Assembly: GCF_014230305.1 (NCBI RefSeq)
Contig: NZ_JACLAU010000008.1
Coordinates: 1-64,000, forward strand
DNA length: 64,000 bases
Source of the DNA: Novosphingobium aerophilum
GTDB taxonomy: Bacteria; Pseudomonadota; Alphaproteobacteria; Sphingomonadales; Sphingomonadaceae
Direction: 5' to 3'
Shown piece after piece: positions 14,249 through 36,344 of the stretch; positions within the stretch are counted from its first letter, which is position 1, and every line of letters starts with the position of its first letter. The notes under the pieces were generated by a model that was not told where the DNA came from, searched no databases, and worked only from the letters and a program-made list of their open reading frames with translations. A program made the position numbers and the translations under genes.

Positions 14249-16018
14249 TCATCGCCGGATCAGCGGCAAGGTGACGGACGAGGGACGCGCGCGGTCGCTG
14301 AGGATAGTGATCGCCCGGGGCTGGGCCTGGGGATCACGCGCACGCTCGCGCCAGTCGGAGCCGGTCAGGGTGACCTGCAGGCGATGGCCCGGCTGGAAGG
14401 TCCAGCTGGTCGGCATGATGTCGAACTGCAGCCGCGCGGGCTCCCCGGGGGTCAGGGCCTCGGCATCCTCGGCGAAGGCGCGGTGCCAGGGATAGCCGCC
14501 GGGCAGGGTCCAGGGCGCCGTGCCGGTCTTGCGCAGACTGGCCTTGAGCCGCCCTTCGGTGATCACCTTCACTGTTCCATCGGGGGCGACATCCTCGACG
14601 TAGAGGAACAGGTTGGCGTCGGGCGTGTCGGCCGCGATCCACAGGTCGGCCACGCCATGCCCGGTGTACTCCGCGGCGGCCGCGAAAGGCCGGCCCGCGA
14701 TCGACCAGCCGTGGCCGGGATTGTGGCAAGGCTGCATGGTTGGGCCGAACCCGCTCTTCTCGCAGGTCACCGCATAGTCGACCGCGAATTCCCGCCTTAC
14801 CGCAGCGCCCGCGAACGCGCCTTCGACCAGCCCCTTCGTGGTGAGGGCGAAGCTGGCCGGCTTTGCCTCGGGCAGGGGCCAGACCGCGCTCGACCGCCAG
14901 ACGTTCGGACCCACCACGAAGTAGTGGACCGGATCGTCGCGATCGATCCCGGTGTCGATGCCCTTGAGATGGCGATCGAAGAAGCGCAGCGCTTCCTCGG
15001 CCAGGGCAAAGCCGTCGTTCTCGCAATGCAACCAGTCGCCAATCAGGATGCGCGCGCCGGGAATGTTGGCCTGGGCGATCAGGCCCTGATCCCGCAGCTC
15101 GTCGCGCCACCCGCCGACCACGTAGAGCGGCACGCCGCCCTGGATCATCTGCGGCCTATAGCTCGACGCGCTGCCCTCGGCCCAGAAGGGGCTCTGCAAC
15201 TGGGGGGAGAAGCTGTCGCGGTAAGGCAAGGCCTTCCACACCTCGAACAGCGGCACCGCCCGCTGGTGCTGCTCGGCGGCCTGGCGGAGCAGCACCTTGT
15301 CGGGATCGGTGTCGACGGGCTTGACCGCCATGTCCTGCGCGATCGTGCGGGTGGGCCCGGTGCCCCACTGCGCGAAGATTCCGCCGCGGCGCATGGCATC
15401 GTACTTGTTCCAGGAAAAGCACCCGGCGAACACGGCCTTGAGGTGCGGGGCGTTGACGGTCATCGCCTGCGCAGCGGCATCGCCGGTGTTGGAGCAGCCA
15501 TACTGCCCGACCATGCCGTTCGACCAGGGCTGGCGGGCGAGCCATTCGATCAGCTCATAGGCATCATGCGCCTCGTTGCGATCGTGATAGCCGCGCATGG
15601 TCCCGAACGACTGGCCATTGCCGCGCCGCGCGACCTGGACCACGACATAGCCATAGTCGGTCAGCCGGGGCATGGTAACAAAGCCCGCCGCGCGCGATCC
15701 CACCCCGTCGGCGGGCTGCTGGGTGGCGCTGAGCGAATGATGCCAGATCACCGGGAACCGGCTGTCGACCGGCTTGCCGCCCTGCGCCGGGCGGGCGACC
15801 AGCACGGCCACCTTCGTCCCGTCGCGCAAGGGCAGGTAGAACGAGCTGGTGACCTGCTCGGAATAGGTCCGGGGGGGCTGGTAATGCCCGAAGGACGACG
15901 GGACCGACGCGGGAGAGAGCGCCGGCCCCGCCGCGGGGGAAGATGTGGCGGTCTGCGCCCCTGCCCCGGTCGTCGCCGTCGCCAGCATCACGGCCAGGGC
16001 AGCGAGCGCCGCCCGCAT
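14249..16018 (-). CDS. Secreted CocE/NonD family hydrolase
   Basis: The 589-residue protein has a signal peptide (residues 1-21, ending GAGA-Q) and an alpha/beta-hydrolase core followed by a C-terminal jelly-roll domain (about 400-589). This is the layout of X-Pro dipeptidyl-peptidase S15/CocE-type hydrolases, which include cocaine esterase and beta-lactam acylases. The nucleophile is Ser176 in GQYGCSNTG, and GDWLHCENDG probably supplies the His. The start ATG shares one base with the stop of the upstream TonB receptor (TGATG), so both are translated together. The likely job is periplasmic cleavage of an ester or amide brought in by that receptor. The substrate is unknown. Confidence 0.85.
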   Translation of the reverse strand: MRAALAALAVMLATATTGAGAQTATSSPAAGPALSPASVPSSFGHYQPPRTYSEQVTSSFYLPLRDGTKVAVLVARPAQGGKPVDSRFPVIWHHSLSATQQPADGVGSRAAGFVTMPRLTDYGYVVVQVARRGNGQSFGTMRGYHDRNEAHDAYELIEWLARQPWSNGMVGQYGCSNTGDAAAQAMTVNAPHLKAVFAGCFSWNKYDAMRRGGIFAQWGTGPTRTIAQDMAVKPVDTDPDKVLLRQAAEQHQRAVPLFEVWKALPYRDSFSPQLQSPFWAEGSASSYRPQMIQGGVPLYVVGGWRDELRDQGLIAQANIPGARILIGDWLHCENDGFALAEEALRFFDRHLKGIDTGIDRDDPVHYFVVGPNVWRSSAVWPLPEAKPASFALTTKGLVEGAFAGAAVRREFAVDYAVTCEKSGFGPTMQPCHNPGHGWSIAGRPFAAAAEYTGHGVADLWIAADTPDANLFLYVEDVAPDGTVKVITEGRLKASLRKTGTAPWTLPGGYPWHRAFAEDAEALTPGEPARLQFDIMPTSWTFQPGHRLQVTLTGSDWRERARDPQAQPRAITILSDRARPSSVTLPLIRR

Positions 16019-18720
16019 CAGAAGGCCTTCCGCACCGAGACCGCGAAGAGCCGGCCGGTCGGGTCGGCGGCGGTGGCATCATACCCGCCGCTGCCATTGC
16101 CGCTCGGCGCGATGTTCACGTAGGGCGGCCGTTCGTTGAACAGGTTGCGGACCTCGAAGGTGAGCGTCATGCCCTTCTCGAAGAAGCCCGAGGCGGTGCG
16201 GTCACCGATCCGCCAGTTGAGCGAGAAGTCCACCGGATTGAACGCGCGCACGTTCTGCACTGGATTGGCGGCGATGTTGCGATAGCCGTTGACGTGGATC
16301 CACTGCACCCGCGCCCCGATCGGCCCGTGCTCATACGTCAGGATCGACCGGACCTTGAGCCTGAGCGGGTTGAAGATCGTGTTGAGCCGATCGACCGTCG
16401 GCGCACTCGGCGCGACCGAGATCCGGTAGCTCGTCAGGTAGGTGCCGCCGACCATCAGGCCCAGCTTGTCGCCATTGCCGAGGGTGGCCGAATAGTCCGC
16501 GGTGAAGTCGATCCCCCGGGTGCGCGAGGCGCCCAGGTTCTGGCCGCGGCCATCGACGAACAGCGTGACGTTGGCCGCACTGCCCCCGGGCAGCGCGCCG
16601 ACCACGCCGACGCCCGAGTTGATGTAGTTCTGCACCTGGGTCGCCGCGGCCGCACCCTGGAAGATCACGTTGGTGCCGGCGTAGAACGCCTGGTCGCCCA
16701 GGATCGCCAGGTTGGACAGGTTGGCGATCACCTGGTTCTTGTAGTTCACGTCCCAGTAGGTCAGCCCGAAGTGGAGCCCGCGCACCGGATCGAGATCGGC
16801 GCCGATCGACCAGGTCTTGGCGGTTTCAGGCTTGAGCCCAAGGTTCTGCCCCGACAGCGCCACGCCCACCAGGGTGCCACCCGCCGGGTTCGAATAGTTC
16901 TGGACGAACAGGTTGTTCGAGTTGCCGTAGATTTCCGGGATGGTCGGCGCGCGGAACGAGGTGCCATAGCTGCCGCGCAGCTTCAGCCCGTCGACCGGGG
17001 TCCAGTTGACGCCGAACTTGGGGTTGGTGGTCCCGCCCACGTCGCTGTACTTGTCGTGGCGGACGGCGGCGTTCAGCTCGAGCTTCTGGAATCCGGGCAC
17101 CGCGTTGTCGGCGCCGAACACCGGCACGTAGAGCTCGCCATAGACCGAGTCGACCACGCGGCTGAAGTTGCGGAAGACCAGCGGAGTGGTCGGCGCGCCG
17201 CGGGCCGAGCCCAGCGACACAGCGAAGTCCTGCCGCTGGTAACCGGCCGCCAGCTTCACCGATCCGCCGGGCAGATCGACCAGCGAACCGTTCAGCCGCG
17301 CCTCGTAGGTCCGCAGGCGGCCGTTGGTCGGGGCCAGGAATATCTGGTTGGCCAGGGTCGGATAGAGCGCCGGATTGGTCCGGCGCAGGCCGTAGGGATC
17401 GAAGGCGGCGTTGGGATCGCTGCTGGCCAGGGCCGCGTTGAGCGCCGCGTTGTTGATCGCGGCGACCGAGGTCGAATTGTCGTTGGTCTTGCCGAAGCCG
17501 GCCAGCGCCTCGAACTGGAAGTCGTGGGGCAGCTTGATCGACAGCTTGGGCGTTATCTGCCAGCTCTGGGCATAGCCCCAGGAGTCGGGCGACGGCAGCT
17601 CGCGGAACATGTAGTCGATCGTGTAGCTGGTCCCGGTGAAGCCGGCGGGACGGACGAAGAAGGCATTGGTCTGCGGTACCGTGATGGTCGCAGCCGTCCA
17701 GGCCGACTTGCGGTAGAATTCGCGCCGCGAATAGAACCCGTCGAGCGACAGCTTGATCGAATCGTTCACCTCGAAGGTGGCCGTGCCGTTGACCGAATTG
17801 TACTGCTGGCGGGGCATCAGGTCCTGGTTGGCGAGCAGCTCGCACTTGTTGCTGGTGCCCGCCACCAGCGTGCCCGCGGTCGCCTGGGTCACCCCTGCGG
17901 CGGGAATGGCATAGGTCTGTCCGGCGGCGCGGATCGTGCCGGGGCTGCAGCGCGTGGTGCGGCCGTCCGGCCCGCCGAAGGGCGTCTGATCGGACACGAA
18001 GAAGTTGCGGTTGTCGCCCGACAGGTTCGATCGCTCGACATGCTCGTAGGCAATCATGATCTGCCCGCGCGAGAAGACCTTGCCCAGGGCCGCGCCCAGG
18101 GTGATCTCGTGCAGGTCACCCTGCTGGGCGATACCAGTGCGGGCGAAGACCTCGGCGCCGTTCAGGCTGCGCCGCGGGATCAGGTTGACCACGCCGGCCA
18201 CCGCGTCCGACCCGTAGATCGCCGAGGCGCCGTCCGCCACGACCTCAACCCGCTCGACACCCAGCGAAGGCATGACCGAGGGATCGATCGACCGGCTGTT
18301 GTACGTCACGCGGTGCCCATCGATCAGCACCAGGGTGGCATAGGGCCCGATCCCGCGCAGGTTGACCGAGTTGCCGAAGGTGATGTTGCCCGAACCGCCC
18401 GACTGGCCACGCGAGTTCTCGGACACGCCGAGATCGAAGTTCTGCGGGATTTCCTTGATCATGCGATCGACGGTGACCGCCGTCGAGCTTTCGATCTGGG
18501 CGCGGCCCAGCGAGATGATCGCCGATCCGACCGGGGCCTGGCCACGGATCGAGGTGCCGGTCACGACGATTTCCGTTTCGGGCGCGGCCTCGGCGCTGGC
18601 CGTCGGCTTGTCGGCCGGAGCGGTCGACCGACTCTGGGCCGCCGCGACGCCGGGCGCCACCAGCGCGAGAGCCAGCGCGAGACTGGACCCGTGCGAAACG
18701 AGCTTGCCGGAAATTGCCAT
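16018..18720 (-). CDS. TonB-dependent outer-membrane receptor
   Basis: The 900-residue protein has a signal peptide (to about residue 30, AAA-QS), a TonB-box-like TEIVVTGTSIRG, a plug domain (about 60-180) with the RGIGPYATLVLIDGHRV and VERVEVVADGASAIYGSDAVAGVVNLI motifs, a long beta-barrel and a C-terminal Phe. It belongs to the IroE/TieA-like clade that sphingomonads use for plant-derived organics rather than iron. The ATG at 18720 has GGAGGAA upstream. It is followed by the hydrolase with a TGATG overlap and is preceded by a MarR gene (18930-19421) on the same strand, so MarR control is plausible. A near-palindrome at 18876-18899 lies in its upstream region. Confidence 0.93.
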   Translation of the reverse strand: MAISGKLVSHGSSLALALALVAPGVAAAQSRSTAPADKPTASAEAAPETEIVVTGTSIRGQAPVGSAIISLGRAQIESSTAVTVDRMIKEIPQNFDLGVSENSRGQSGGSGNITFGNSVNLRGIGPYATLVLIDGHRVTYNSRSIDPSVMPSLGVERVEVVADGASAIYGSDAVAGVVNLIPRRSLNGAEVFARTGIAQQGDLHEITLGAALGKVFSRGQIMIAYEHVERSNLSGDNRNFFVSDQTPFGGPDGRTTRCSPGTIRAAGQTYAIPAAGVTQATAGTLVAGTSNKCELLANQDLMPRQQYNSVNGTATFEVNDSIKLSLDGFYSRREFYRKSAWTAATITVPQTNAFFVRPAGFTGTSYTIDYMFRELPSPDSWGYAQSWQITPKLSIKLPHDFQFEALAGFGKTNDNSTSVAAINNAALNAALASSDPNAAFDPYGLRRTNPALYPTLANQIFLAPTNGRLRTYEARLNGSLVDLPGGSVKLAAGYQRQDFAVSLGSARGAPTTPLVFRNFSRVVDSVYGELYVPVFGADNAVPGFQKLELNAAVRHDKYSDVGGTTNPKFGVNWTPVDGLKLRGSYGTSFRAPTIPEIYGNSNNLFVQNYSNPAGGTLVGVALSGQNLGLKPETAKTWSIGADLDPVRGLHFGLTYWDVNYKNQVIANLSNLAILGDQAFYAGTNVIFQGAAAATQVQNYINSGVGVVGALPGGSAANVTLFVDGRGQNLGASRTRGIDFTADYSATLGNGDKLGLMVGGTYLTSYRISVAPSAPTVDRLNTIFNPLRLKVRSILTYEHGPIGARVQWIHVNGYRNIAANPVQNVRAFNPVDFSLNWRIGDRTASGFFEKGMTLTFEVRNLFNERPPYVNIAPSGNGSGGYDATAADPTGRLFAVSVRKAF

Positions 18721-18875
18721 CAGTTCCTCCCTCATGCCCGCAACGGACCAGGCGAAGGACAATCGGCGCGCCGTCACGCGGCGTTATGACCATCCTCTCC
18801 CCGGCCGGTCCGTTTGCCGGACTCGCGCCAACCGGCGCCCATTCCGCCGGTTCTGCCCATTAATCGAACAATGGT

Positions 18876-18929: not shown

Positions 18930-19421
18930 TCACAATTCGCGGACAACCGCGTCGTACATCCGGTCCAGCACGTCGTTGAGCATCTGGTGCTCGGCCTCGG
19001 TCAGCGAGTGGAGCACGGCGCCCTCCACCTCTTCCATCCGGGCGAACAGGCGGTCGAGCTGGCGGTCCCCCTCCGGGGTGACGTAAAGCGCATGGCGACG
19101 CCGATCATCGGGCGAACGGCGGCGCTCGGCCCAGCCGTATTTCTCCAGCTCGTCGATGATGGTCACCGTAACCGACTTGTCGAGCCCGACCTCGCTGGAC
19201 AGCTCGCTTTGCGAAATGCCCGGGTTCGCCGCGACGATCGCCAGCGACGAGAACAGCCCGGAGCGCAGTCCCATGTCGGCATTGGCGGCGGCGAACTTGC
19301 GCGACAGTTGGTTCTGGACGCGGCGCAGGCGAAAGCCGACGAAGTCTCCCAGCCGGCCAAGCGCCAGGTTGGACCGTTCGGTCTCGCCGCCGCGCGCCGT
19401 AAGGTTGGAATTGGTTGCCAT
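18930..19421 (-). CDS. MarR-family transcriptional regulator
   Basis: The 163-residue protein has the MarR architecture: a dimerisation helix at about 20-50, a winged helix with PGISQSELSSEVGLDKSVTVTIIDELEKYG as location of recognition (residues about 67-96), a wing SPDDRRRHALYVTPEG, and a C-terminal dimerisation helix. It is divergent from the TRAP/CoA-transferase operon (137 bp between starts) and is followed on its own strand by the TonB receptor and hydrolase. That position makes it the likely ligand-responsive repressor of both units, with a CoA thioester or the imported acid as possible inducer. The inducer is inference. Confidence 0.85.
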   Translation of the reverse strand: MATNSNLTARGGETERSNLALGRLGDFVGFRLRRVQNQLSRKFAAANADMGLRSGLFSSLAIVAANPGISQSELSSEVGLDKSVTVTIIDELEKYGWAERRRSPDDRRRHALYVTPEGDRQLDRLFARMEEVEGAVLHSLTEAEHQMLNDVLDRMYDAVVREL

Positions 19422-19558: not shown

Positions 19559-20116
19559 ATGGACCACAGCCAGCCTGAAGCGCCGGAAGCCTCCGGCCCG
19601 GACGGGCCAACCGGGGCGTCTCCCGGAGGGATTCCCCCAGCCGGATGGCTGCGCCTGGTCTATGGGCTGGGTGGCTGCGGCCTGCTCGGCGCGACGGCAG
19701 CCGACGCGATCGCGGTGGCCGGGCGCCACGCCGGCTTCCACCTGCTCGGATCGATCGAGCTGGTCCAGGCCGCCGCCGTGCTGCTGGCAGGATCGGCCAT
19801 GCTGATCGCCACGGTCCAGGGCGAACATGCATCGGTCCACATGGTCACCGAACGTCTCGCAAGGCCCACCGCCGCGCGGTTGGCGCGACTGGCGGCGCTG
19901 ATCAGCGGGCTCGTGTTCCTGGCGGTCGCGGCCGGCTCCGCCTGGGTGGCGGGCGACCTGTGGTCCGGTTTCGAGCGGACCGAGCTGCTGCACATCCCGA
20001 TCCGCTGGCTACGGGCCGCCTGGATCGGCTTTGCCCTGCTGATCGCGCTCACCTTCCTGCGCCGGGCCATCCGGGCCGGGGGGCTGGACGGGCATCGCGG
20101 GGATCACCGGCGATGA
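19559..20116 (+). CDS. dctQ: TRAP transporter small membrane subunit (DctQ type)
   Basis: This 185-residue protein is the small integral-membrane component of a tripartite ATP-independent periplasmic transporter. It has four hydrophobic segments at about 32-52, 66-86, 108-130 and 148-166, a charged cytoplasmic tail, and an unusually long proline-rich N-terminus of about 28 residues. It is identified mainly by topology and by its position before dctM and dctP. AAGGAG lies just before the ATG. The stop overlaps the dctM start (ATGA). With DctM it would drive Na+- or H+-coupled import of an organic acid captured by DctP. Confidence 0.82.
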   Translation: MDHSQPEAPEASGPDGPTGASPGGIPPAGWLRLVYGLGGCGLLGATAADAIAVAGRHAGFHLLGSIELVQAAAVLLAGSAMLIATVQGEHASVHMVTERLARPTAARLARLAALISGLVFLAVAAGSAWVAGDLWSGFERTELLHIPIRWLRAAWIGFALLIALTFLRRAIRAGGLDGHRGDHRR

Positions 20117-21417
20117 CCCCCGAGCTGATAGGCGCGATCGGCATCGCCATCCTCCTGCTGCTGCTCGCCGGCGGGGTGCCGATCGGGATCGGCCTGATGC
20201 TGGTCGGGATCGGCGGGCTGGCGGTGATGATCTCGCCCGAGGCGGCGCTGGTGAAGGCCGGGGTGGTCTCGTTCGAGGTGATCTCCAAGTACGAGCTGGG
20301 GGTCCTGCCGCTGTTCCTGCTGATGGCCCACATCTGCTTCGCGGCGGGGGCGAGCCGGGACTTCTTCGATGTCGCGGCCAAGTTCCTCGGCCACCGCCGC
20401 GGCGGGCTCGCGCTCGCCTCGATCGGAGGCTGCGCCGGGTTCGGCGCGATCAGCGGGTCGAGCCTCGCCACCGTCTCGACGATCAGTTCGGTCGCCCTGC
20501 CCGAGATGCGCCGCGCCGGCTATCATCCCGGCTTCGCTTCGGGCGCGCTCGCCGCCGGGGGGACGCTCGGCTCGCTCACCCCGCCCTCGGGCGCGCTGAT
20601 CGTCTTCGGGATCATCGCCGAACAGTCGATCGGCAAGCTGTTCGCCGCCGCGATCGTCCCCGGCGCCACCCAGGCCCTGTCCTACATGCTGACCATCACC
20701 CTGCTCTGCCTGTGGCGGCCCGAGCTGGGCCCGGCCACGGCGCGCGTGCCGTGGCGCGAGCGGCTGCCCGCGCTGCGCCAGGTGGCCGATATCCTCGCCC
20801 TGATGATCTTCGTCATCGGCGGGCTGATGATCGGCTGGTTCACCCCCACCGAGGCGGCCTCGGTGGGGGTGGTCGGCGCCCTGACCCTGCTCGCGGTGCG
20901 CGGCGGCTTCACCCGCGCCGCGGTCGGCGGAGCCCTGCGCTCCACGCTGCGCACTGCCGGGATGATCTATGTGGTGATCATCGGCGCGCTGCTGTTCGCC
21001 ACGTTCATTTCGGCGAGCGAGATCACCGAGGCCCTGTCCGGCGCGGTGACCCAGTTGCACGCCAGCCCGGTGGTGGCGATCATCGCGATGACCCTGATCC
21101 TGCTGCTGCTGGGATCGTTCCTGGACGGCGTGGCGCTGATGCTGCTGACCACGCCGATCTTCCTGCCGATTGCCGAACAGCTGGGCTACAGCCCGATCTG
21201 GTTCGGGATCTTCCTGGTCCGGACGATGGAGATCGGCTTCGTCCATCCGCCGCTGGGCCTGAACATCTATGTGATCCAGGGTCTGGCCAAGGACCTGTCG
21301 CTGGGGACGATCTTCCGCGGGGTGATCCCCTTCCTGGTCGCCGATTTCTGCCACCTGGCCCTGATCATCGCCGTGCCGGCGCTGACCCTCTGGCTGCCCG
21401 GAGTGGTCGCCGGATGA
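20113..21417 (+). CDS. dctM: TRAP transporter large permease (DctM type)
   Basis: The 434-residue protein has about twelve membrane segments and the DctM signatures: GVPIGIGLMLVGIGGL at the N-terminus, FGAISGSSLATVSTISSVALPEM, GGTLGSLTPPSGALIVFGIIAEQSIGKLF (positions about 155-183) and GWFTPTEAASVGVVGAL. This subunit carries the substrate and coupling-ion path. The ATG overlaps the dctQ stop by 4 bp. The same frame stays open far upstream but the family start and overlap fix this ATG. Confidence 0.93.
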   Translation: MTPELIGAIGIAILLLLLAGGVPIGIGLMLVGIGGLAVMISPEAALVKAGVVSFEVISKYELGVLPLFLLMAHICFAAGASRDFFDVAAKFLGHRRGGLALASIGGCAGFGAISGSSLATVSTISSVALPEMRRAGYHPGFASGALAAGGTLGSLTPPSGALIVFGIIAEQSIGKLFAAAIVPGATQALSYMLTITLLCLWRPELGPATARVPWRERLPALRQVADILALMIFVIGGLMIGWFTPTEAASVGVVGALTLLAVRGGFTRAAVGGALRSTLRTAGMIYVVIIGALLFATFISASEITEALSGAVTQLHASPVVAIIAMTLILLLLGSFLDGVALMLLTTPIFLPIAEQLGYSPIWFGIFLVRTMEIGFVHPPLGLNIYVIQGLAKDLSLGTIFRGVIPFLVADFCHLALIIAVPALTLWLPGVVAG

Positions 21418-22481
21418 GCCCGCTGCGCACCCTGCTCGTCCTCGCCCTTGGCGCGGCTCTCGCCGCCTGCGGCCGTCCCGCCGATCCCGGCGTCACCACC
21501 CTGACCACAACCCTGACCTACGCCAGTCCCTATCCGCCGACCCACCCCTTCTCCAAGGCCGACATCACCTGGATGAAGCACGTCGAGCAGGCGAGCGGGG
21601 GACGCATCCGGATCAAGCCCTACTGGTCGGGGGCGCTGCTCTCGTCCGACATGTCGATGATCGAGATCCGCCATGGCCTGGCGGACATCGGCCTGATCAC
21701 TCCGATCTATGCGCGGGGCGGGGCGCACATGCTGCGCGCGCAGTCGGGGTTCTATGGCGGCATTCGCAGCCTGCAGGACCAGGTGGCGGTCTACGATTGC
21801 CTCGATCGCCGCTTCCCGGCCTTCGGCAACGAGCTCAAGGGGCTGCATGTCCTCGCCGCGCAGGGCGGCAACTTCCCCGGCGTGCTGACCCGCAACCGCC
21901 CGGTCCACAGCCTGGCCGATCTCAAGGGCCTGCGCCTGCGCGCCCAGAGCGACGCGATCGATGTGCTGCGCGCGCTCGGGGCCGATCCGGTCAACATGCC
22001 GATGGGCGAGGTCTACTCCGCGCTCGCCAAGGGGGTGATCGACGGGGTCGTCGCCCCGGCCGACACGATCAAGAGCCTGCACTTCGCCGAGGTGGCCCAT
22101 CACTTCACCAGCCTGCGCTTCAGCCGCGGCGCCTATCCGGCGAGGGCCATGTCGGACCGCGCCTGGCAACGCCTCTCCCCCGCCCAGCAGCGCCTCCTGG
22201 CCGAATCGCGCCGGGTCTGGGAAGCGGCGCTCGCCAAGGAGGTGCTCAAGGCCGAAGCGGCCGGGGTGGCCTACGCCTCGGGCCACGGGGTGGAGATGAT
22301 CCCCTTCCCCGCCGGCGAGCAGGCCCGGCTCGATACGCTCTACAACCGCTTCGCGCTCGACCAGGCGCAGCGCCTGTCCGCTGTCGGCATCGACGGCGTC
22401 CCCGTGTTCCGCGAGGCCCAGCGCCTCATCGCCGCCGGCCCGATCGCCTGCGCGCCCAGCCCTTCCGGAGTAACCCCATGA
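21414..22481 (+). CDS. dctP: TRAP transporter substrate-binding lipoprotein (DctP type)
   Basis: The 355-residue protein starts with a lipoprotein signal ending in the lipobox LAACG, so it is probably anchored in the periplasm by Cys18. The DctP domain is recognised by YPPTHPFSKA, the SGG-RIKPYWSGAL segment, the ADLKGLRLRAQS motif bearing the conserved arginine that usually binds a ligand carboxylate, and GEVYSALAKGVIDGVVAP. The ligand is therefore probably a carboxylic acid. Lipid-anchored DctP proteins are less common than soluble ones. The ATG overlaps the dctM stop and the stop overlaps the next gene (both ATGA). Confidence 0.9.
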   Translation: MSPLRTLLVLALGAALAACGRPADPGVTTLTTTLTYASPYPPTHPFSKADITWMKHVEQASGGRIRIKPYWSGALLSSDMSMIEIRHGLADIGLITPIYARGGAHMLRAQSGFYGGIRSLQDQVAVYDCLDRRFPAFGNELKGLHVLAAQGGNFPGVLTRNRPVHSLADLKGLRLRAQSDAIDVLRALGADPVNMPMGEVYSALAKGVIDGVVAPADTIKSLHFAEVAHHFTSLRFSRGAYPARAMSDRAWQRLSPAQQRLLAESRRVWEAALAKEVLKAEAAGVAYASGHGVEMIPFPAGEQARLDTLYNRFALDQAQRLSAVGIDGVPVFREAQRLIAAGPIACAPSPSGVTP

Positions 22482-23728
22482 GCAACGGCAGCGACCTCAC
22501 CCACAGGCCGCTCGAGGGCCTGACCGTCATCGACCTGACCCGCGCCCTGGCCGGCCCCTATGCGACGATGCTGCTGGCCGGCCTCGGCGCCAAGGTGATC
22601 AAGGTGGAGGAACCCAAGGGCGGCGATCTCGCCCGCGAGAACAGCCCCTATGTCGGCCGCGACGGGGTGATCGTGGAACGGCGGCACGAGGACGACATCT
22701 CCATCTCGCACCTCACTCGCGCGCGGGGCAAGTATGGCGTGTCGCTCGACCTGAAGAGCGAGGCGGGCAAGGCGGTCTATTTCGATCTGGTGCGCAAGGC
22801 CGATGTCGTGGTCGAGAACTTCACCGCCGGCACCGCTGACCGGCTGGGCATCGGTTACCAGGCGTGCAAGGCGGTCAACCCGCGGGTGGTCTTCGCCTCG
22901 CTGTCGGGCTTCGGCGCGACCGACCGCGACGGCAAGGCCATGGACGTGATCATCCAGGCGCTGTCGGGCGCGATGTTCACCAGCGGCGAGCCTGGGCACC
23001 CCCCGGTCCGCATCGGCATCCCGATCGCCGACATGCTCGCCCCGGTGTTCACCGTGATCGGCATCCTCGCCGCGATCGAGCAGCGCCACACCTCCGGGGT
23101 CGGCCAGCATGTCGACGTCTCGATGCTCGGCGCCCTTACCTCGTTCGTGGCGATCGAGAACTGGTCGGCCATGGCCGCCGCCGGGCTCCCCGCGCGCACC
23201 GGGCTGACGGTCCAGCGGCTCTCCCCCTTCGGCGTGTTCGAATGCGCCGACGGCTATGTCGCGGTGGTGGCGGTGCACGAACCGCTCGCCCGCGGCCTGT
23301 TCGCGGCGATGGGCCAGCCCGAGCTGTCGGACGATCCCCGCTTCTGCAGCCGCGATGCCCGCGTCGCCAATGCCACCGAGCTGGAAGCGCGGATCAACGC
23401 CTGGTCGCGGACCCTGCCGATGGTCGAGGTGCTGCGCGCGCTGGAAGCGCAGGGCGTGCCGGTCGCCCCGGTGCGCCATCCCGAGGACGCGCTGGTCGAT
23501 CCTCGGGTGGTGGCGCGGCAGGAGACCATGGCGGTCAAGCACCCGAGCTACCGGTCCAGCATCGATCTGCGCACGGCCGGCGTGCCGATCCAGTTCTCCG
23601 GCGCCACCACCGGCTTCGACGATGCCCTGCCGGTGCGCATCGGCGAGCACAACCAGGCGATCCTGCGCGATTTCCTGGGCTATGACGAGGGCCGGATCGC
23701 CGCCCTGGCCGAGGCCGGGGCGATCTGA
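22478..23728 (+). CDS. CaiB/BaiF family CoA-transferase, first of three
   Basis: The 416-residue class III CoA-transferase begins LEGLTVIDLTRALAGPYATMLLAGLGAKVIKVE (residues about 12-44) and keeps catalytic Asp185 in IPIADML, which forms the acyl-aspartate intermediate. Other family marks are LDLKSEAGKAVYFDLV, VVENFTAGTADRLGIGY and the GVGQHVDVSML region. Length is normal for the family. It would activate an imported acid by moving CoA from a donor thioester, or exchange CoA after the pathway. It overlaps dctP by 4 bp and shares one base with the next start. Donor and acceptor are not predictable. Confidence 0.9.
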   Translation: MSNGSDLTHRPLEGLTVIDLTRALAGPYATMLLAGLGAKVIKVEEPKGGDLARENSPYVGRDGVIVERRHEDDISISHLTRARGKYGVSLDLKSEAGKAVYFDLVRKADVVVENFTAGTADRLGIGYQACKAVNPRVVFASLSGFGATDRDGKAMDVIIQALSGAMFTSGEPGHPPVRIGIPIADMLAPVFTVIGILAAIEQRHTSGVGQHVDVSMLGALTSFVAIENWSAMAAAGLPARTGLTVQRLSPFGVFECADGYVAVVAVHEPLARGLFAAMGQPELSDDPRFCSRDARVANATELEARINAWSRTLPMVEVLRALEAQGVPVAPVRHPEDALVDPRVVARQETMAVKHPSYRSSIDLRTAGVPIQFSGATTGFDDALPVRIGEHNQAILRDFLGYDEGRIAALAEAGAI

Positions 23729-26082
23729 TGCTCGACCGCTTCCGGCGGGCCTTTGCCGATCCGGACGGCGAAGTGGCACGCGCCCTGGCGGAGGGACGGC
23801 GGCCGATCCGCGTGCTGGGCACCGACGCCCCGCGGGCCCGGCTGATCGCCGCGGGCTTCCAGCCGGTCCGTCTGGTCGCCCCGCCCCTGCAGGTCACCCC
23901 CCGCGCCGACGCGGTGATGGGCGCGGCCGAGATGGGGCCGCGCGGGCGGCGGCTGCTCGAAGCCCTGCTCACCCTGCCTCACCCCGACGTTCCGGTGCTG
24001 ATCACCCAGGCCGACAGCGTGCAGCCGCAATTGTTCGCCGCCCTTCGTGAACTCGGCCGGCTGGGAGAGGCTGTGCCGCAACACATCCACTTCCTCGACC
24101 TGCTCCACCTCGATCGCCCGGCCTCGACGGCTTACAATCGGGCCCGGCTGGCGCAGCTTGACACCTGGCTTGCCGGGTTCGGGGCTTCGCCCGGCGCCAC
24201 CGATCCCGATCTGACCGCGCTTCTGGCCCAGGCGGCAGAGTTGCAGGGTGCGGGGCGGCTATCGGGCAGCGATGCGCTCGCCGTGGCTGGCGGATGTGCG
24301 GTGCTCCCGGTCGACGAGGCGCGCGCCGCCCTGTCCGACCTGCTTGCTGCCGACCTGCTTGCGGCCGACCTGCCGGTGCGTGCTTCCGTCCCCCGGATCC
24401 TGGTCTGCGGCACCGCGCACGAGGACGCCCGGCTTTGCGGCGCGATCGAGGCGGGCGGCGGCGCGATCGTCGGTGCGGTCCATGCCTGGTCGCTGACGCC
24501 CTTGGCACTCCCCGCCCGCGTCGCCGATCCGACCGCCACGGCCGCCCGGGTCGCCGCCGACGCTGCCCGGCTGCGCCCCGATCTGGTGCTGCACCTGACG
24601 ATCGACGGGGACGAGGCGGCGCCGTGGGATGTCCCTGCCCTGCGCCGCATGCTGCCGGCGGATCAGGGTTTCGCCGCGCTGCGCTGTTCGAGCGCGCCGG
24701 ACGACCGCTTCACGCGTGATCTCGCCGTCGCGCTGGGCCGGGCCGAGCCCGCCGCGGCGCCGTCCCGCCCGGCCCGGCCGACCGCCTCGCGCCCGGCCCC
24801 CCAACGCAGCCGCAAGGCGCTGAGCTCGACCGGCGACGTCAACGCCTGGCAGCGCGACTGGTTCGCTTCGGTGCGCGCAGCCGTGGCGGCCGGATCGCCC
24901 TTCGCCGTGGTCAATGCCAATGCTCCGCAGGAAATCCTGCGCGCGATGGACGTGCCCTTCGTGGTCAACCAGTGGTGGGCCTCGATCGTCGCGGCCAAGC
25001 AGCAGTCGCGGCGCTATCAGGGTCTGCTCCGCGCGCACGACTATCCTGCCGATGTCGAGGCCTATTCGGCGCAGGGCCTGGCCGCCCTGTTCGACGACGA
25101 TCCGGACCACGCCCCGTGGGGCGGCCTGCCCCGGCCCGATTTCGTCCACGCGGTGGCCTCGTCGGACCCGACGCTGAAGCTGTTCACCCAGTGGGGCGCG
25201 GCCAGCGGGGCGGACTGCTACGTCTACGAACGCACGATCGATCCGCGCCCCGATCTCTATGCCGACTGGTGGGACCAGTTGCCGGACCATTGGGAGACCG
25301 CGGTCGAACCCGAACGGGTCGACCTGATGGTGGCCGAGATGCGCGAGGTCATCGCCCGGGTCGAGGCCCGCACCGGGCGGCGGTTCGATCCGGCCCGGTT
25401 CGCCGAAGTCATGGCCCTGGTGAACGAGCAGGAGGACTATTACCGCAAGACCCGCGATCTGGTCGCCCGCACGGTGCCCGCGCCGATCGGGGTGGTCGAT
25501 TCGATGCCGGCGACCATGGTGCCGCAATGGCATCGCGGCACGGTCTGGGCGCGCGACGCCGCCCGGGCGCTTTACGAAGAGGTGCGCGAGCGGGCGGAAG
25601 CCGGACTGGGCGCCTGTCCGGATGAGCGCATCCGCCTGATGTGGGTCGGGCGCGGGCTGTGGAGCGAGATGGCGTTCTACCAGAAGTGGGAGGACAGCCA
25701 CGGCGCCGTGTTCGTCTGGTCGATGTACCTCGCCCTGGCCGCGGACGGCTATCTGCGCGACCTGTCACAGGGACAGGATCCGCTGCGCGCGCTGGCCAGC
25801 CGGATCGTCTGCATGGGGGACGAACTGCGCATGCCGACCTGGGCCGGCCCCTGGCACGTGCATGAGGCGCGGACCCACCAGATCGACGCCGCCGTGGCGC
25901 TGCAGGACGCCGATCCCTTCGTGGTCCGCGCCCTGCGGGCAGCCGGAATCCCCGTCCTTGAGCTGACGGCCGACAACTTCAACCGCGAGGGCGAGGATGC
26001 CGCAGCGATCGAGGCGGCGATCACCGCCTTCGTCGAGGGCCCCGCCACCGATCGGGCGGCGCAGCGCCATGCCGGCGGCTGA
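23728..26082 (+). CDS. Tandem 2-hydroxyacyl-CoA dehydratase (HGD-D)-like protein without the usual cysteines
   Basis: The 784-residue protein looks like two fused halves (about 1-345 and 375-784) of the HgdB/BcrB-type 2-hydroxyacyl-CoA dehydratase or benzoyl-CoA reductase subunit family. In the second half FAVVNANAPQEILRAMDVPFVVNQWW matches the family's N-terminal strand (residues about 391-416), DERIRLMWVGRGLW the central strand, and ALRAAGIPVLELTADNFNRE the C-terminal strand. Positions where the family normally has Cys ligands for a [4Fe-4S] cluster read YSAQGL, ASSDPTLK and THQIDAA, without Cys; the first half reads ITQADSV at the equivalent place. No ATPase activator gene is present. A proline/arginine-rich linker at about 340-370 joins the halves. 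The reaction is unknown: CoA-ester binding is likely, radical chemistry is doubtful. Confidence 0.72.
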   Translation: MLDRFRRAFADPDGEVARALAEGRRPIRVLGTDAPRARLIAAGFQPVRLVAPPLQVTPRADAVMGAAEMGPRGRRLLEALLTLPHPDVPVLITQADSVQPQLFAALRELGRLGEAVPQHIHFLDLLHLDRPASTAYNRARLAQLDTWLAGFGASPGATDPDLTALLAQAAELQGAGRLSGSDALAVAGGCAVLPVDEARAALSDLLAADLLAADLPVRASVPRILVCGTAHEDARLCGAIEAGGGAIVGAVHAWSLTPLALPARVADPTATAARVAADAARLRPDLVLHLTIDGDEAAPWDVPALRRMLPADQGFAALRCSSAPDDRFTRDLAVALGRAEPAAAPSRPARPTASRPAPQRSRKALSSTGDVNAWQRDWFASVRAAVAAGSPFAVVNANAPQEILRAMDVPFVVNQWWASIVAAKQQSRRYQGLLRAHDYPADVEAYSAQGLAALFDDDPDHAPWGGLPRPDFVHAVASSDPTLKLFTQWGAASGADCYVYERTIDPRPDLYADWWDQLPDHWETAVEPERVDLMVAEMREVIARVEARTGRRFDPARFAEVMALVNEQEDYYRKTRDLVARTVPAPIGVVDSMPATMVPQWHRGTVWARDAARALYEEVRERAEAGLGACPDERIRLMWVGRGLWSEMAFYQKWEDSHGAVFVWSMYLALAADGYLRDLSQGQDPLRALASRIVCMGDELRMPTWAGPWHVHEARTHQIDAAVALQDADPFVVRALRAAGIPVLELTADNFNREGEDAAAIEAAITAFVEGPATDRAAQRHAGG

Positions 26083-27277
26083 ACCCTCCGCTCTGGCTGG
26101 CCTGCGGGTGATCGACTTCTCGCGCTTCCTGCCCACAGCCTATGCGGGCTGGGTCGCGGCCGAGATGGGCGCCGAGGTGATCCGCGTCGAACACCCGCGC
26201 GAGCTGGCCAAGGCCGAGGCGATGTTCGGCCGCGATGCCGATCCGCAGGCCGCCGCCCGGCGTCGGGCCCGGCCGACCTATCACCGCGGCAAGCGCAGCC
26301 TGCGGATCAACCCGGGCAGCGCGGCCGGGCGCGAGGTGCTCCATCGGCTGATCGCCTCGGCCGACGTGGTAATCGAAGACTATCGCCCGGGCGTGATGGC
26401 GGCGATGGGCTATGGCCACGAGGCCATGGCCGCGCTCAACCCGCGCCTCATCACCCTGTCGGTCAGCTTCGCCGGCCAGACCGGGCCGCTTGCCGATCGG
26501 GCCGGGCATGACCCGCTGGCACTGGCGCTGGCGGGAGCTCTCGCCCGCCTCAATGGTCTGCCCGAACCCTCGCTGCCCGGCTTGCAGGTGGCCGATACCC
26601 TGACCGGGATGAGCGCGACCATTGCCCTGCTGCTGGCCCTGCAGGCGCGCGAGCGCCGGGGCACGGGCGAACAGGTTGACGTGGCCATGTCCGACGCGGC
26701 GCTGCAGTTGTTGCTGGTCTCGCTGGGGCGCCATGACGATCTGGACGAGCTGCCCCGTCCCGGCACCTGGCACCCCAAGGGCGGGGTGTGGCGCTGTGCC
26801 GATGGGCTCTACCTGTGCACCACCGACATGGAACCCGCCTATTGGGCGCGGTTCTGTGCCGCGATCGACCGGCCGGACCTGGCTGCGCGCCAGCACGAGG
26901 CGGCGGCCCATCCCGCGATGGAGCAGGAGATCGCCGCGATCATGGCGACGCGGACCCGGGACGAATGGTCCGCCCGTCTCGCCGCTGCCGGAACCCAGGC
27001 CATGCCGGTCTATTCCCCGGCCGAAGCGGTGGCCCATCCGCATCACCTGGCCCGGGGCATGGTGCGCGAGGTGCAAATGCCGGGGCCAGGCGTAGGGCCG
27101 GAACAGGCGTCGGTCCGGCAATTGTCCCTGCCCTTCGTGTTCGGCACGACCCGCGCGGTCGCGCCGAGCCCGGCGGGCGCACCGGGAGCGGACAATGCCG
27201 CGATCCTGGACGCGCTGGGCTTCGATCCGGCGGACCTGGCGGCGCGCGGCGCCTTCTCGACGGAGCGCGAGGCATGA
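26069..27277 (+). CDS. CaiB/BaiF family CoA-transferase, second of three
   Basis: This 402-residue class III CoA-transferase has LAGLRVIDFSRFLPTAYAGWVAAEMGAEVIRVE at its N-terminus (about 9-41) and catalytic Asp176 in LQVADTL. It is the most divergent of the three copies, with a shortened, Arg-rich segment at 60-75 (AAARRRARPTYHRGKRSLRI). It overlaps the HGD-D-like gene by 14 bp and the next gene by 4 bp. Similar divergence in CaiB-type proteins often signals a different acceptor acid, or an acyl-CoA racemase-like activity as in AMACR. Neither can be chosen here. Confidence 0.88.
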   Translation: MPAAEPSALAGLRVIDFSRFLPTAYAGWVAAEMGAEVIRVEHPRELAKAEAMFGRDADPQAAARRRARPTYHRGKRSLRINPGSAAGREVLHRLIASADVVIEDYRPGVMAAMGYGHEAMAALNPRLITLSVSFAGQTGPLADRAGHDPLALALAGALARLNGLPEPSLPGLQVADTLTGMSATIALLLALQARERRGTGEQVDVAMSDAALQLLLVSLGRHDDLDELPRPGTWHPKGGVWRCADGLYLCTTDMEPAYWARFCAAIDRPDLAARQHEAAAHPAMEQEIAAIMATRTRDEWSARLAAAGTQAMPVYSPAEAVAHPHHLARGMVREVQMPGPGVGPEQASVRQLSLPFVFGTTRAVAPSPAGAPGADNAAILDALGFDPADLAARGAFSTEREA

Positions 27278-28458
27278 GGCCGCTGGACGGGATCCGCGTG
27301 GTCGATTTCACCCACGCGATCGCGGGGTCGACCTGCACCCAGATGCTGCTGCAACTGGGTGCCACGGTGATCAAGATCGAGCCCCCCGGCACCGGCGATG
27401 CCTTCCGCCACTACACCGAGCATGCCGGCCCCCCGGGCATGAGCGTGCCCTTCGCCGCGCTCAACGCCGGCAAGCGCTCGGTCGCGCTCAACCTCAAGAC
27501 CGGGCGCGGGCAGGCTCTTGCTCGGCAGCTCGCGGAGGGCGCCGACATTGTCGCGGAGAACTTCCGGCCGGGCGTGATCGCGCGGCTCGGGCTCGGCTGG
27601 GACGTGCTGCATGCCGCCAACCCGCGCCTTGTCATGATCTCGCTGAGCGGCTTCGGCCAGGACGGGCCGCTGCGCGACTGGGGCGCTTACGACCACATCG
27701 CCCAGGCGGTCTCGGGCATGGCGCTGATGAACGGCTTCGACGAACGCCCGTTCAAGATCGGCCTTCCGGTGGTCGACAGCTTCACCGGCTACCTCGGCGT
27801 GATCGCGGTGCTCGCCGCCCTGCGGGAGCGTGACGTGACCGGTCAGGGCAAGCGGATCGACGTCGCCATGCTCGACGCGGCGATCAAGATCATGGGCACG
27901 GCGGCCGCGATGTGGTCGTACACCGGGGTCGCGCCGCAGGGCACCGGGAACCGCGGCTTCCGGCTGGTCGCCACGGCCGAGTACTATGCCACGGCCGAGG
28001 GCTGGATCGCCCTCGGCGCGAACATGCAGCACCAGATCGAGGCGCTGTTCCGCGTGCTGGGCCATGCCGAACTGATGAGCGACCCGCGCTTCGCCACCCA
28101 CGCCGCACGGGTCGAGCACTATGCCGCGCTCAAGGGCTGGCTGACCGAGCATCTGCTGAGCCGCCGCGCCGCCGATCTCGAGGCGGAACTGACCGCGGCC
28201 GGGGTTCCGGCGGCCCGGATCCGCGACATCGGCGAGGCCCTGACCCATCCGCACGTCATGGCGCGCGGGTTGGCCGAGGCGGCCGAGATGCCGGGCCACG
28301 ATCGTCCGCTGACCGTGCTGGGGCCGGGTTTCGGGGTGGAACCCGATCCCGTGCCCCGCCACGTCCCGAGCCTTGGCGAGCACACCGGGTCGGTGCTCGC
28401 CGAGCTCGGCCTCACCGCCGCGGAGATCGCCGCGCTGGCCGATGAGGGCGTGCTGTGA
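27274..28458 (+). CDS. CaiB/BaiF family CoA-transferase, third of three
   Basis: The 394-residue protein starts LDGIRVVDFTHAIAGSTCTQMLLQLGATVIKIE (about 4-36) and keeps catalytic Asp168 in LPVVDSF. It has the classical family blocks SVALNLKTGRGQALARQLAEGADIVAENFRPGV (about 69-101) and MISLSGFGQDGPLRDWGAYDHIAQAVSGM. The start overlaps the second transferase by ATGA and the stop overlaps the CapA-like gene by GTGA. Two adjacent class III transferases could form a heteromeric enzyme, as in the benzylsuccinate CoA-transferase BbsEF, or act at different steps. Confidence 0.9.
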   Translation: MRPLDGIRVVDFTHAIAGSTCTQMLLQLGATVIKIEPPGTGDAFRHYTEHAGPPGMSVPFAALNAGKRSVALNLKTGRGQALARQLAEGADIVAENFRPGVIARLGLGWDVLHAANPRLVMISLSGFGQDGPLRDWGAYDHIAQAVSGMALMNGFDERPFKIGLPVVDSFTGYLGVIAVLAALRERDVTGQGKRIDVAMLDAAIKIMGTAAAMWSYTGVAPQGTGNRGFRLVATAEYYATAEGWIALGANMQHQIEALFRVLGHAELMSDPRFATHAARVEHYAALKGWLTEHLLSRRAADLEAELTAAGVPAARIRDIGEALTHPHVMARGLAEAAEMPGHDRPLTVLGPGFGVEPDPVPRHVPSLGEHTGSVLAELGLTAAEIAALADEGVL

Positions 28459-29555
28459 GCGACCTGCTGCTGCTGGGAGACCTGATCCTTGACGTGCCGG
28501 AGCCGGATCACTGGCTGTCGGGCCTGGCCCCGCTGACCCGTGCGGCCGGGCTGGTGATCGGCCACCTGGAGGTGCCGCACACCACCTGCCAGGAGGAGAT
28601 GCCCGGCGACGTGCCCGCCCCCGGCGCCGACCCCGCCCATCTCGACGCCCTGGCACGCGCGGGGATCGGTGCGGTCTCGCTGGCCGGCAACCACATGATG
28701 GACTGCGGCCCGGTCGGGCTGGCGGACACGATCGCCGGGCTCGCCCGCAACGGGATCGCCCACGCCGGGGCCGGACCCGGCCTGGCTGCGGCGCGGGCGC
28801 CCGCCTGGCTCGACTGGGCAGGACGTCAGGTCGCCCTGCTGAGCTACAACTGCGTCGGGCCCGAGCTGTGCTGGGCCACGGCGGACCGGCCCGGGGTCGC
28901 CCCCATCATCGTCCGGGCCGAGGATGGCGGGCCGAGCCGCCCACAGGCCAGCCTGCGCGAGATCGATCCAGCCTCGCTGGGCGCGATGCAGGCCGACATT
29001 GCCGCGGCACGAGCCCGGGCGGATGTGGTCGTGGTCGCGCTGCACAAGGGCATCACCCACCGGGTTGCCGAACTGGCACCCTACGAACGCCCGGTGGCCC
29101 AGGCCGCGATCGACGCCGGAGCCGATGTGGTCGCCGGGCATCACGCCCACATCACCCGGGGGATCGAACTCTATCGCGGCAAACCGATCTTTCACGGCCT
29201 CGGCAACGGCTGCGTCGTCACCCATGCCCTGGCCCCGGCGCAGGACCATCCCGCCCGCGCCGAATGGGCCGAGCGGCGCAAGGTGCTGTTCGGGTTCGAA
29301 CCCTTGCCCGACTATCCGCTGGCCCCGTTCCACCCCGATGCCCGGCACGGGATGATCGGACGGCTGCGGATCGCGCCGGACGGGACGATCACGCCGGGCT
29401 TCATTCCGCTGTGGTTCGAACCCCCCGGCCGTCCGGTCCCGGCCGAGTGCCGGGCGGCAGAGGTGGCCGCCTACATCGCCTGGATCGGTTCGGAAGCCGG
29501 ATTGCCGGGTCTGACGCTGCGCTCGGACCGCGCCGGCGGCTACGATCTCGCCTGA
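28455..29555 (+). CDS. CapA family protein (metallophosphoesterase-like)
   Basis: The 366-residue protein matches the PgsA/CapA family, which has a calcineurin-like fold. Marks are LLLGDLILD near the start, the AVSLAGNHMMDCGPVGLADTI block with the conserved NH, VVVALHKG, and AGADVVAGHHAHITRGIELYRGKPIFHGLGN with the conserved HxH pair. Classical CapA acts in poly-gamma-glutamate or capsule synthesis and has a membrane anchor. Here no signal peptide or membrane segment is seen, so the protein is probably cytoplasmic. A GTG start overlaps the previous stop (GTGA). It closes an eight-gene coupled operon, suggesting a hydrolase or phosphatase role in the pathway. Confidence 0.85.
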   Translation: MSDLLLLGDLILDVPEPDHWLSGLAPLTRAAGLVIGHLEVPHTTCQEEMPGDVPAPGADPAHLDALARAGIGAVSLAGNHMMDCGPVGLADTIAGLARNGIAHAGAGPGLAAARAPAWLDWAGRQVALLSYNCVGPELCWATADRPGVAPIIVRAEDGGPSRPQASLREIDPASLGAMQADIAAARARADVVVVALHKGITHRVAELAPYERPVAQAAIDAGADVVAGHHAHITRGIELYRGKPIFHGLGNGCVVTHALAPAQDHPARAEWAERRKVLFGFEPLPDYPLAPFHPDARHGMIGRLRIAPDGTITPGFIPLWFEPPGRPVPAECRAAEVAAYIAWIGSEAGLPGLTLRSDRAGGYDLA

Positions 29556-29565: not shown

Positions 29566-30528
29566 TCAGCGCAGCAGGGGACGCGGCACCGACCAGTCGG
29601 GGACCTTGCAGAGCCCGCAGTCGGCGCCCACGAAATACCGTCGCGCGGCCCGATCACCCTTGAGCATGGCGTCGAGCCAGCGGGTCGCGATCACGCCATA
29701 GGCCCCGCCGTTGGGCGCGGTGCGGAAAGTCCCGCCGTGGCCGGTCGGAGCATGGGCGAAGAACACCGGCACATGGACGATCCGCGCCACGTCATCGATC
29801 GCCTGGGGCCAGGCGATGTCGCCTGGTCCGCCAAGGATGTAAGCGATCGGGGCGTGCAGCCTGGCCAGTTCGGACTTGGCCACGTTCAGTCCGGTGCGGC
29901 CGTCGGCGCTGTTGTTGAACACGCCGGAGTTGAACAGCGCGGTCGCCTTGATCCGGGGATCGGCCGAGATGCGGATCGCCTGCAGGCCGCCGCACGAATG
30001 CCCCATCACCGCCACGCGCGCCGGATCGACATGGCGATAGAACGGACTGGCCGGATCGGCGTTCTGCCGCTCCAGCCAGTCGAGCCCGGCGAGGATCTGC
30101 TCGGGACTGGTCGCGTCCGGCCCGCGCCGGGCCAGTTGGGCCGGGCGATTGGGATCGGGCGGCGGCATTTCGGTGATGCGTACCGGCGGGACCAGCGCAG
30201 GCTCTTCGCGCGGAGGGCCGGGGACCACGATGACATAGCCGTGGCTCGCCACCTCGCGGAGGAACCCGGCATGGGCCAGACCATCGTCGCGGCAGGCGCC
30301 GTTGCCCCACAGCACGATCGGCAGGGGCCGGTCGGGGAGGCGCGCCGGGCGGTAGACCGTGTGGTCCGGCAAGGCCGGGAGGTACTCCGCCACCGCCGGC
30401 GCGGGGCCGGTTCCGCCCGGTTGTCCGACCACCCCGAACGGCTTCGGTGGCACCTTGGCCTCCTGCGCGCCCAGGCTGGTGGCGGTGAGCGCCAGCATGG
30501 CGAGGCCGATCCATTGCCTGCGCTCCAT
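29566..30528 (-). CDS. Secreted alpha/beta hydrolase (dienelactone hydrolase-like/PETase-like fold)
   Basis: The 320-residue protein has a signal peptide (about 1-21, SLGAQ) and an alpha/beta-hydrolase core. IVLWGNGACRDDGL supplies the oxyanion region, the nucleophile elbow is GHSCGG (about residue 169), ILGGPGDIAWP gives the acid region, and the catalytic His is in APTGHGGTF. These resemble polyester/chlorophyllase-like hydrolases. GGAGAG precedes the ATG at 30528; a longer open frame upstream has no signal peptide. It converges on the CapA-like gene (10 bp apart) and is divergent from iorA. The substrate is unknown. Confidence 0.8.
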   Translation of the reverse strand: MERRQWIGLAMLALTATSLGAQEAKVPPKPFGVVGQPGGTGPAPAVAEYLPALPDHTVYRPARLPDRPLPIVLWGNGACRDDGLAHAGFLREVASHGYVIVVPGPPREEPALVPPVRITEMPPPDPNRPAQLARRGPDATSPEQILAGLDWLERQNADPASPFYRHVDPARVAVMGHSCGGLQAIRISADPRIKATALFNSGVFNNSADGRTGLNVAKSELARLHAPIAYILGGPGDIAWPQAIDDVARIVHVPVFFAHAPTGHGGTFRTAPNGGAYGVIATRWLDAMLKGDRAARRYFVGADCGLCKVPDWSVPRPLLR

Positions 30529-30560
30529 GCCATCTCTCCGCTGATCGCAGCCATGACAGT

Positions 30561-30596
30561 GATTGCGATTCGATATAGCATAATGCGGGAGCAATC
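30561..30596. promoter_or_regulatory. Inverted repeat in the hydrolase/iorA divergent region
   Basis: GATTGC (30561-30566) and GCAATC (30591-30596) are exact inverted copies around a locally AT-rich 24-bp centre containing TATAGCATAAT. This is the most promoter-like part of the 199-bp region between the divergent genes. Its function is a guess. Confidence 0.3.
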
Positions 30597-30727
30597 GTGG
30601 CGGGGCAAGCGGGCTGCGTGCCTTGACGGACAGGGGCGCCGAAAGCGGGTTCACCTGGGCCCGCCAGCCCATTATCCTCACGCCCGAAGCATCGAAGCCG
30701 CAGCCCCGCGGCCGCTGGAAGGAACGC

Positions 30728-31225
30728 ATGAAAACGGCACTCAAGGTCAACGGCCGGACCCGTATCGTCGATGCGCCGGGCGATAAGCCCCTGCTCTGGG
30801 TCCTGCGCGAGGAGCTGGAGCTGAGCGGGCCCAAGTTCGGCTGCGGCCAGGGCCTGTGCGGCGCCTGCACCGTGCTGCTCGACGGGCAGGCGGTGCGGTC
30901 ATGCTCGACCCCGCTGAGCGCGGTGGGCAAGGCCGCGATCACCACGATCGAGGGGGTGGGCGCCAGCGAGGTCGGCCAGAAGGTCGCGGCGGCCTGGGTC
31001 GATCAGGACGTGCCGCAATGCGGCTATTGCCAGGCCGGCCAGATCATGAGCGCGGTCGCCCTGCTCAGCGCCAACCCGCGCCCCGGGGAGGCCGAGATCG
31101 ACGCCGCGATGAGCGGCAACCTGTGCCGCTGCGGCACTTATCACCGCATTCGCGCGGCGATCCGCCAGGCCGTGACCGGTCAGGTGGCCGGTTCGCTCAA
31201 CCCGGGAGGCGACCATGCCGGCTGA
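30728..31225 (+). CDS. iorA: Isoquinoline 1-oxidoreductase-like small subunit, two [2Fe-2S] clusters
   Basis: The 165-residue protein is the iron-sulfur subunit of a molybdenum hydroxylase of the xanthine oxidase family. The plant-type [2Fe-2S] cluster is held by Cys39, Cys44, Cys47 and Cys59 ([13 protein letters not shown]), the second by Cys98, Cys101, Cys133 and Cys135 (QCGYCQAGQ and CRCGTY). The ATG at 30728 is chosen because the family begins with the ferredoxin domain; its RBS is weak (GGAAC). The gene overlaps iorB by 11 bp. Electrons would pass from the Mo site through these clusters to an acceptor encoded elsewhere. Confidence 0.92.
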
Positions 31226-36177: not shown

Positions 36178-36344
36178 CGGAGGGGATGCCCTTTCAGGTG
36201 CGGCATGGCCAAGGCCTCTGCTGCACCCGTTCCCACCCCGGCTGTCAATCCCCGGCGGTCTTGCCGGGCCGATCCGGTCGCGGCTTGCGCCGAACCCGAA
36301 AATCGTTTTCACTCGGAGTTCGGTTCACTGTCTCGGGGGCGAGG

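Follow-up and report, generated by a model that had tools for sequence, protein, structure and literature searches.

The window, by which we mean the whole stretch of DNA analysed, comprises 64,000 nucleotides of Novosphingobium aerophilum (assembly GCF_014230305.1, contig NZ_JACLAU010000008.1, positions 1 to 64,000, forward strand). At 23728..26082 (forward strand) it encodes a 784-residue HGD-D-like protein in which a beta-type and an alpha-type half are fused and the cluster cysteines are absent. The gene lies within a run of start/stop overlaps on the forward strand that begins with dctQ (19559) and proceeds through dctM, dctP, caiB1, the HGD fusion, caiB2 and caiB3 to a CapA-like gene ending at 29555, with the CaiB1 stop overlapping the start of the fusion. 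The products are the small permease DctQ (19559..20116; PF04290), large permease DctM (20113..21417; PF06808) and substrate-binding protein DctP (21414..22481; PF03480) of a TRAP transporter, the class III CoA-transferases CaiB1 (22478..23728), CaiB2 (26069..27277) and CaiB3 (27274..28458), and a CapA-like (PGA_cap) protein (28455..29555; PF09587, E 7.5e-52); the start codons of DctP and of the three CaiB proteins were assigned. A sequence-only reading of the locus had proposed an operon with three CoA-transferases on the strength of the overlaps, and the family profile PF02515 is indeed above cut-off in all three at E 1.2e-79 or better (CaiB1 3.6e-105, in a scan from the codon after Met; CaiB2 1.2e-79; CaiB3 4.8e-113). 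The Asp of the IGIPIAD motif of CaiB1, which we take to be the catalytic Asp, is kept in 77 of 77 CaiB1 rows. Divergent from the operon and upstream of it is a gene for a MarR-type regulator (18930..19421, reverse strand; PF01047) with relatives in 32 related loci, and between this gene and dctQ, at 19455-19482, TTGACA and TAATCT stand 16 bases apart, by eye a sigma-70-like candidate promoter. Elsewhere in the window are a LigM-type vanillate/3-O-methylgallate O-demethylase (3570-4985, well above the NCBIfam cut-off), a row of phenylalanine 4-monooxygenase, 4-hydroxyphenylpyruvate dioxygenase, glyoxalase-family and fumarylacetoacetase-like genes (38244-42910), and a two-gene molybdenum hydroxylase with 2Fe-2S and Mo subunits (30623-33395), which adjoins the operon and among the related loci is found only in L017.

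NCBIfam and PDB matches relate the CapA-like protein to the epimerase MslH, whose Ca ligands are Glu44, Asn87, His259 and His261 and whose dyads are His88/Asp91 and His295/Asp11. In the alignment of the two proteins Asn87, His88, Asp91, His259 and His295 are matched and His261 is replaced by Gly; Asp11 and Glu44 fall outside the printed alignment. Given the His261 replacement and an NCBIfam score of 103.5 against a cut-off of 700, we rejected assignment as an MslH-type epimerase. Because the protein resembles MslH and recurs beside the system in two phyla, the pathway may include a stereochemical step.

Several reverse-strand neighbors also recur: a Peptidase_S15/CocE-like hydrolase (14249..16018; PF02129; relatives in 27 related loci), a TonB-dependent receptor (16018..18777; 70% identical to the annotated TonB receptor of L003; relatives in 24 related loci), a PETase-like alpha/beta hydrolase (29566..30945, start provisional; PF12740 barely above cut-off; 16 related loci) and an Amidohydro_2 protein (35305..36312, start provisional; PF04909; common to L017 and ten actinobacterial loci). 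Across the related loci, tannase-like proteins occur in 25 (the DUF6351 Pfam match itself being below cut-off), PaaX in 28, pca genes in three (L045, L054, L071) and relatives of the hydroxycinnamoyl-CoA hydratase/lyase of L002 in four (L002, L044, L070, L077). Leaving the receptor aside, these neighbors point loosely to ester-derived, perhaps aromatic, acids as substrate.

The PF06050 profile finds HGD-D in both halves of the fusion protein, a predicted structure and fold comparison do the same, and together with the open reading frame they uphold the proposed tandem HGD-D fusion of 784 residues. Residues 1-338 (23728..24741) are predicted to adopt a HadC (beta)-like fold and residues 366-782 (24823..26073) a HadB (alpha)-like fold, and the two are likewise predicted to pair as beta and alpha subunits do. 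According to PMC11971306, the active-site [4Fe-4S] cluster of BzdO is held by Cys95, Cys128, Cys380 and a water or hydroxide, HadB coordinates its cluster in the same way, and the BzdO cluster water is flanked by Glu65 and His131, the latter position being Ala in HadB. In alignments to both proteins, the column of HadB C84/BzdO C95 is Glu444 in the fusion (codon 25057-25059), that of C117/C128 is Ser479 (codon 25162-25164) and that of C346/C380 is deleted, so that none of the three alpha-type cluster cysteines is kept. Nor is the catalytic Glu beside the cluster (HadB Glu55, BzdO Glu65), a column that is Glu in 6 of 6 canonical rows and Gln415 in the fusion (codon 24970-24972). In canonical enzymes the beta subunit, the counterpart of the N-half, carries an electron-relay cluster. 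The three columns that are Cys in five of five canonical beta subunits are Gly70, Ser97 and Asp295 (codon 24610-24612) in the fusion, and the beta-type set is likewise not kept. The absence of Fe-S cysteines noticed earlier is thus borne out by alignments, predicted structure and a 101-row tree, and alignment of the Cys columns reveals no complete set.

The Cys-less HGD-D protein is not a one-off and belongs to a widespread group. The fusion is matched in 33 of 396 Sphingomonadales genomes; 19 of these matches are strong, all in the window's own genome family (own genome included), and 14 are weak and partial. Among the relatives listed from a search that found 410, those that carry a name are mostly from Novosphingobium and Sphingomonas. 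A full-length alignment of 119 sequences (the window protein and 118 of 120 listed relatives) has no mostly-Cys column among those occupied by the window protein, the highest being 227 (59/119), and Asp96, Asp295 and Glu444 are each at least 97% conserved. A scan of genome contigs yielded 325 relatives, and the best 80, which were kept, come from Sphingomonadales, Povalibacter, Alteromonas, Caulobacter, Niveispirillum, many Actinobacteria and Chloroflexi. The two halves are encoded as one chain in most proteobacterial loci and by separate adjoining genes in most actinobacterial ones. In one Novosphingobium MAG (L018, 8922-9916) the N- and C-half are not in one open frame, unlike in close relatives, and the N-half match is split into two pieces, which would fit either sequencing error or decay.

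In a tree of 101 alpha subunits, 95 rows group together as a clade with a long stem (support 0.953) and six canonical rows lie apart. This superclade consists of 81 rows with Glu or Asp at position 444, the window protein included (the Glu group), eight rows that keep C84 and C117 and have lost C346 (two-Cys relatives), four rows in which the two ligand columns read Pro and Gly, L105 with Ala and Asp there, and L085, from a Chloroflexi MAG, which retains all three alpha cluster cysteines. Support is 0.70 for the 81-row group and 0.09 for the node joining the two-Cys and Pro/Gly rows, so any order or number of Cys losses read from the tree is tentative. The L085 MAG (also L099) has the three cluster cysteines yet Gln at the catalytic Glu, and six activator matches in its genome; no N-half was recognised beside its alpha-type gene. 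The four Pro/Gly rows (L004, L102, L103 and L104) represent a second Cys-less lineage, and the L004 gene sits with two CaiB, two MmgE/PrpD-like and one enolase-superfamily gene.

Position 444 is Glu or Asp in 81 of 81 rows of the Glu group, and position 415 is Gln in all 81, in all eight two-Cys rows and in L085 and L105; in the Pro/Gly rows it is Ala, Ala, Thr and Pro. Also conserved within the Glu group are Asp or Glu at 480 (79/81, with Ala or Pro in the other two), Asp at 729 (80/81) and His at 717 (79/81). In the N-half, 68 of the 69 Glu-group rows have Asp at column 295 and one has Glu, and all seven rows of the other superclade relatives have Asp. Cys persists at position 97 in 30 of the 69 rows, though not at the other two beta columns, and position 630 is Cys in 68 of 95 rows, so some thiols survive outside a complete set. 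Many invariant polar and aromatic residues are kept at pocket positions of the C-half. Segments corresponding to the BzdO acyl-CoA channel are mildly better conserved than the remaining C-half, a difference equalled by 39 of 418 circular shifts, and CoA binding by the C-half therefore stays putative.

The radical dehydratases are a classic example of radical chemistry that is strictly anaerobic. The sequence-only reading found no ATPase activator nearby, and this now extends to the whole genome, where profile searches gave 0 matches to TIGR00241 and 0 to PF01869. TIGR00241 is above cut-off in 3 of 50 genomes of unstated completeness with related loci (50 of an initial 70 loci). One of the three is the L085 genome, which has six activators; in the remaining two genomes the activator adjoins a separate HGD-D pair on another contig, the alpha subunits of which (L100, L101) have all three cysteines. 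With the positives so accounted for, 47 of 49 Glu-group genomes have no activator over the cut-off, one of the 47 having a weak match (20.9 versus 125.4 bits). The activator is also absent from all 18 Sphingomonadaceae genomes with relatives, two-Cys ones included. The host had been presumed an aerobe, which is likely: its genome has two haem-copper oxidase matches and no match to anaerobic ribonucleotide reductase. On a Rhizobium leguminosarum plasmid (L005, 7863-13291), two activase genes accompany a canonical HGD-D pair in the vicinity of rhodanese-like and sulfate permease genes, a surprising setting for oxygen-sensitive chemistry.

Co-inheritance was assessed in the 69 related loci that are 16 kb or longer. 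All 69 have CaiB1 (at least 50% identity), 68 of them within 4.5 kb; the N-half is recognisable in 68 and a CapA-like gene in 49. TRAP genes accompany 33 of the 36 proteobacterial long loci and none of the 32 actinobacterial ones. The CapA-like gene also occurs beside the two-Cys loci L002 and L003 and in L085. Set against the 69 of 69, the best CaiB1 match in 14 loci outside the group, six of them only about 4.3 kb long, is 36%, indicating that CaiB1 goes with the Cys-less group. Mean identity between the window and Actinobacteria is 54% for CaiB1, 53% for the C-half, 49% for the CapA-like protein and about 30% for the N-half.

Among the closest known systems is HadBC, the (R)-2-hydroxyisocaproyl-CoA dehydratase (3o3m, 3o3n, 3o3o), from which the window protein differs in lacking cluster cysteines, in having Gln for Glu, no activator match and a fused beta-alpha chain, and in its likely aerobic host. 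The class I benzoyl-CoA reductases BzdNO and MbdON (8s02, 9g87) are another such system, but the BzdO residues Cys95, Cys128, Cys380 and Glu65, as given in PMC11971306, are not kept and no ATP module was found. In the double-cubane-cluster protein DCCP (7yyl, 7yzm, 6eno) and its family the double cubane is held by Cys, whereas the window protein has no Cys set. The two-Cys relatives (L002 and L003, on Croceicoccus and Novosphingobium plasmids, and L010-L015) share the superclade, CaiB genes and DctP alongside and Gln at the catalytic Glu with the window; unlike it they keep C84 and C117 (though not C346), have separate half genes in L002 and L003, and carry a different CaiB, matching CaiB1 at 36% or less. 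By sequence, the protein falls outside the working radical family on four counts: both Cys sets, the catalytic Glu and the activator. It represents a widely distributed, cluster-less branch of a known fold.

A predicted radical-family fold with neither cluster cysteines nor an activator match makes a different, oxygen-tolerant reaction on CoA-linked acids likely, and since activator, beta cluster and alpha cluster are gone, the Glu is changed and the C-half is as conserved as CaiB1, we infer that this reaction is redox-neutral. We give about an even chance to the specific proposal that the cluster-less HadC/HadB-like protein is a redox-neutral, oxygen-tolerant enzyme acting on an acyl-CoA predicted to come from CaiB1. 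An organic acid would enter via the TRAP transporter and be loaded with CoA by CaiB1; the C-half would bind the thioester at the site that takes the substrate in HadB, and Glu444 together with conserved polar residues (e.g. His602, Arg603 and Asp729) could carry out acid-base elimination, hydration or isomerisation with no electron input, after which the CoA would be recycled by CaiB2 or CaiB3. For the N-half a chiefly structural role may remain, in keeping with its faster divergence (about 30% versus 53% for the C-half). The earlier suggestion of an acyl-CoA enzyme or scaffold free of cofactors agrees with every result obtained, its enzyme half being the leading reading, although a metal or some other cofactor may take part.

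A rival idea is that carboxylates near the old ligand sites (Glu444, Asp480, Asp729; Asp295) hold a single metal that polarises the thioester, making the protein a Lewis-acid lyase or hydratase. The conservation of E/D444 (81/81), D/E480 (79/81), D729 (80/81), His717 (79/81) and D/E295 (69/69) suits such a site, but the Ala or Pro replacing Asp480 in two rows and the lack of the usual His-rich metal motifs at the ligand columns do not, and we consider it rather unlikely. That the fusion is no enzyme at all, and serves as a CoA-binding scaffold or regulatory partner holding CaiB1 or its acyl-CoA, would explain both the strict CaiB1 pairing (69 of 69 long loci) and the loss of the known catalytic features; the many invariant polar and aromatic pocket residues of the C-half, and its conservation to the level of the enzyme CaiB1, exceed what a passive scaffold needs and make this reading unlikely.

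Had and Fld operons comprise a CoA-transferase, a dehydratase and an activator. The same gene logic minus the activator, together with aromatic-catabolism neighbors in a few loci (pca genes, hydroxycinnamoyl-CoA hydratase/lyase relatives) and PaaX in 28, could speak for a Had/Fld-type 2-hydroxyacyl-CoA dehydratase that works radical-free on a substrate whose beta-proton is acidic, for instance an aryl-lactyl-CoA. Such neighbors are found in a minority of loci, however, and PMC11574389 describes the beta-proton of 2-hydroxyacyl-CoA as weakly acidic and beyond removal by ordinary protein bases, so that this version is improbable. An ordinary radical dehydratase or reductase, with its cluster on unusual ligands and reduced by another partner, would accord with PF06050 membership and the existence of some two-Cys relatives, but six Cys columns and the catalytic Glu all differ in the window protein and its genome has no activator match; we find this scarcely credible.

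Returning to the redox-neutral acyl-CoA enzyme, we tentatively suggest, as a possibility short of our favored expectation, that in a widespread aerobic branch of an ancient, oxygen-labile radical family conserved carboxylates replaced the cluster thiolates, whereby a two-cluster dehydratase driven by ATP became an acyl-CoA enzyme that works alone, is oxygen-proof and has a new center, acid-base or single-metal, at the same spot, and that the relatives with three, two and no alpha cysteines are surviving steps of this change. The usual public name of the relatives, '2-hydroxyacyl-CoA dehydratase', is probably wrong for these aerobes, since the branch is without cluster cysteines, catalytic Glu and, in nearly all surveyed genomes, an activator, yet is highly conserved and tied to one CoA-transferase. 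The cluster-less branch spans Proteobacteria, Actinobacteria and Chloroflexi and turns the role of an Fe-S radical scaffold once its metal is lost into a testable question; L085 (three alpha cysteines, six activators), the two-Cys relatives and the Glu group can serve as a natural series for the study of cofactor loss.
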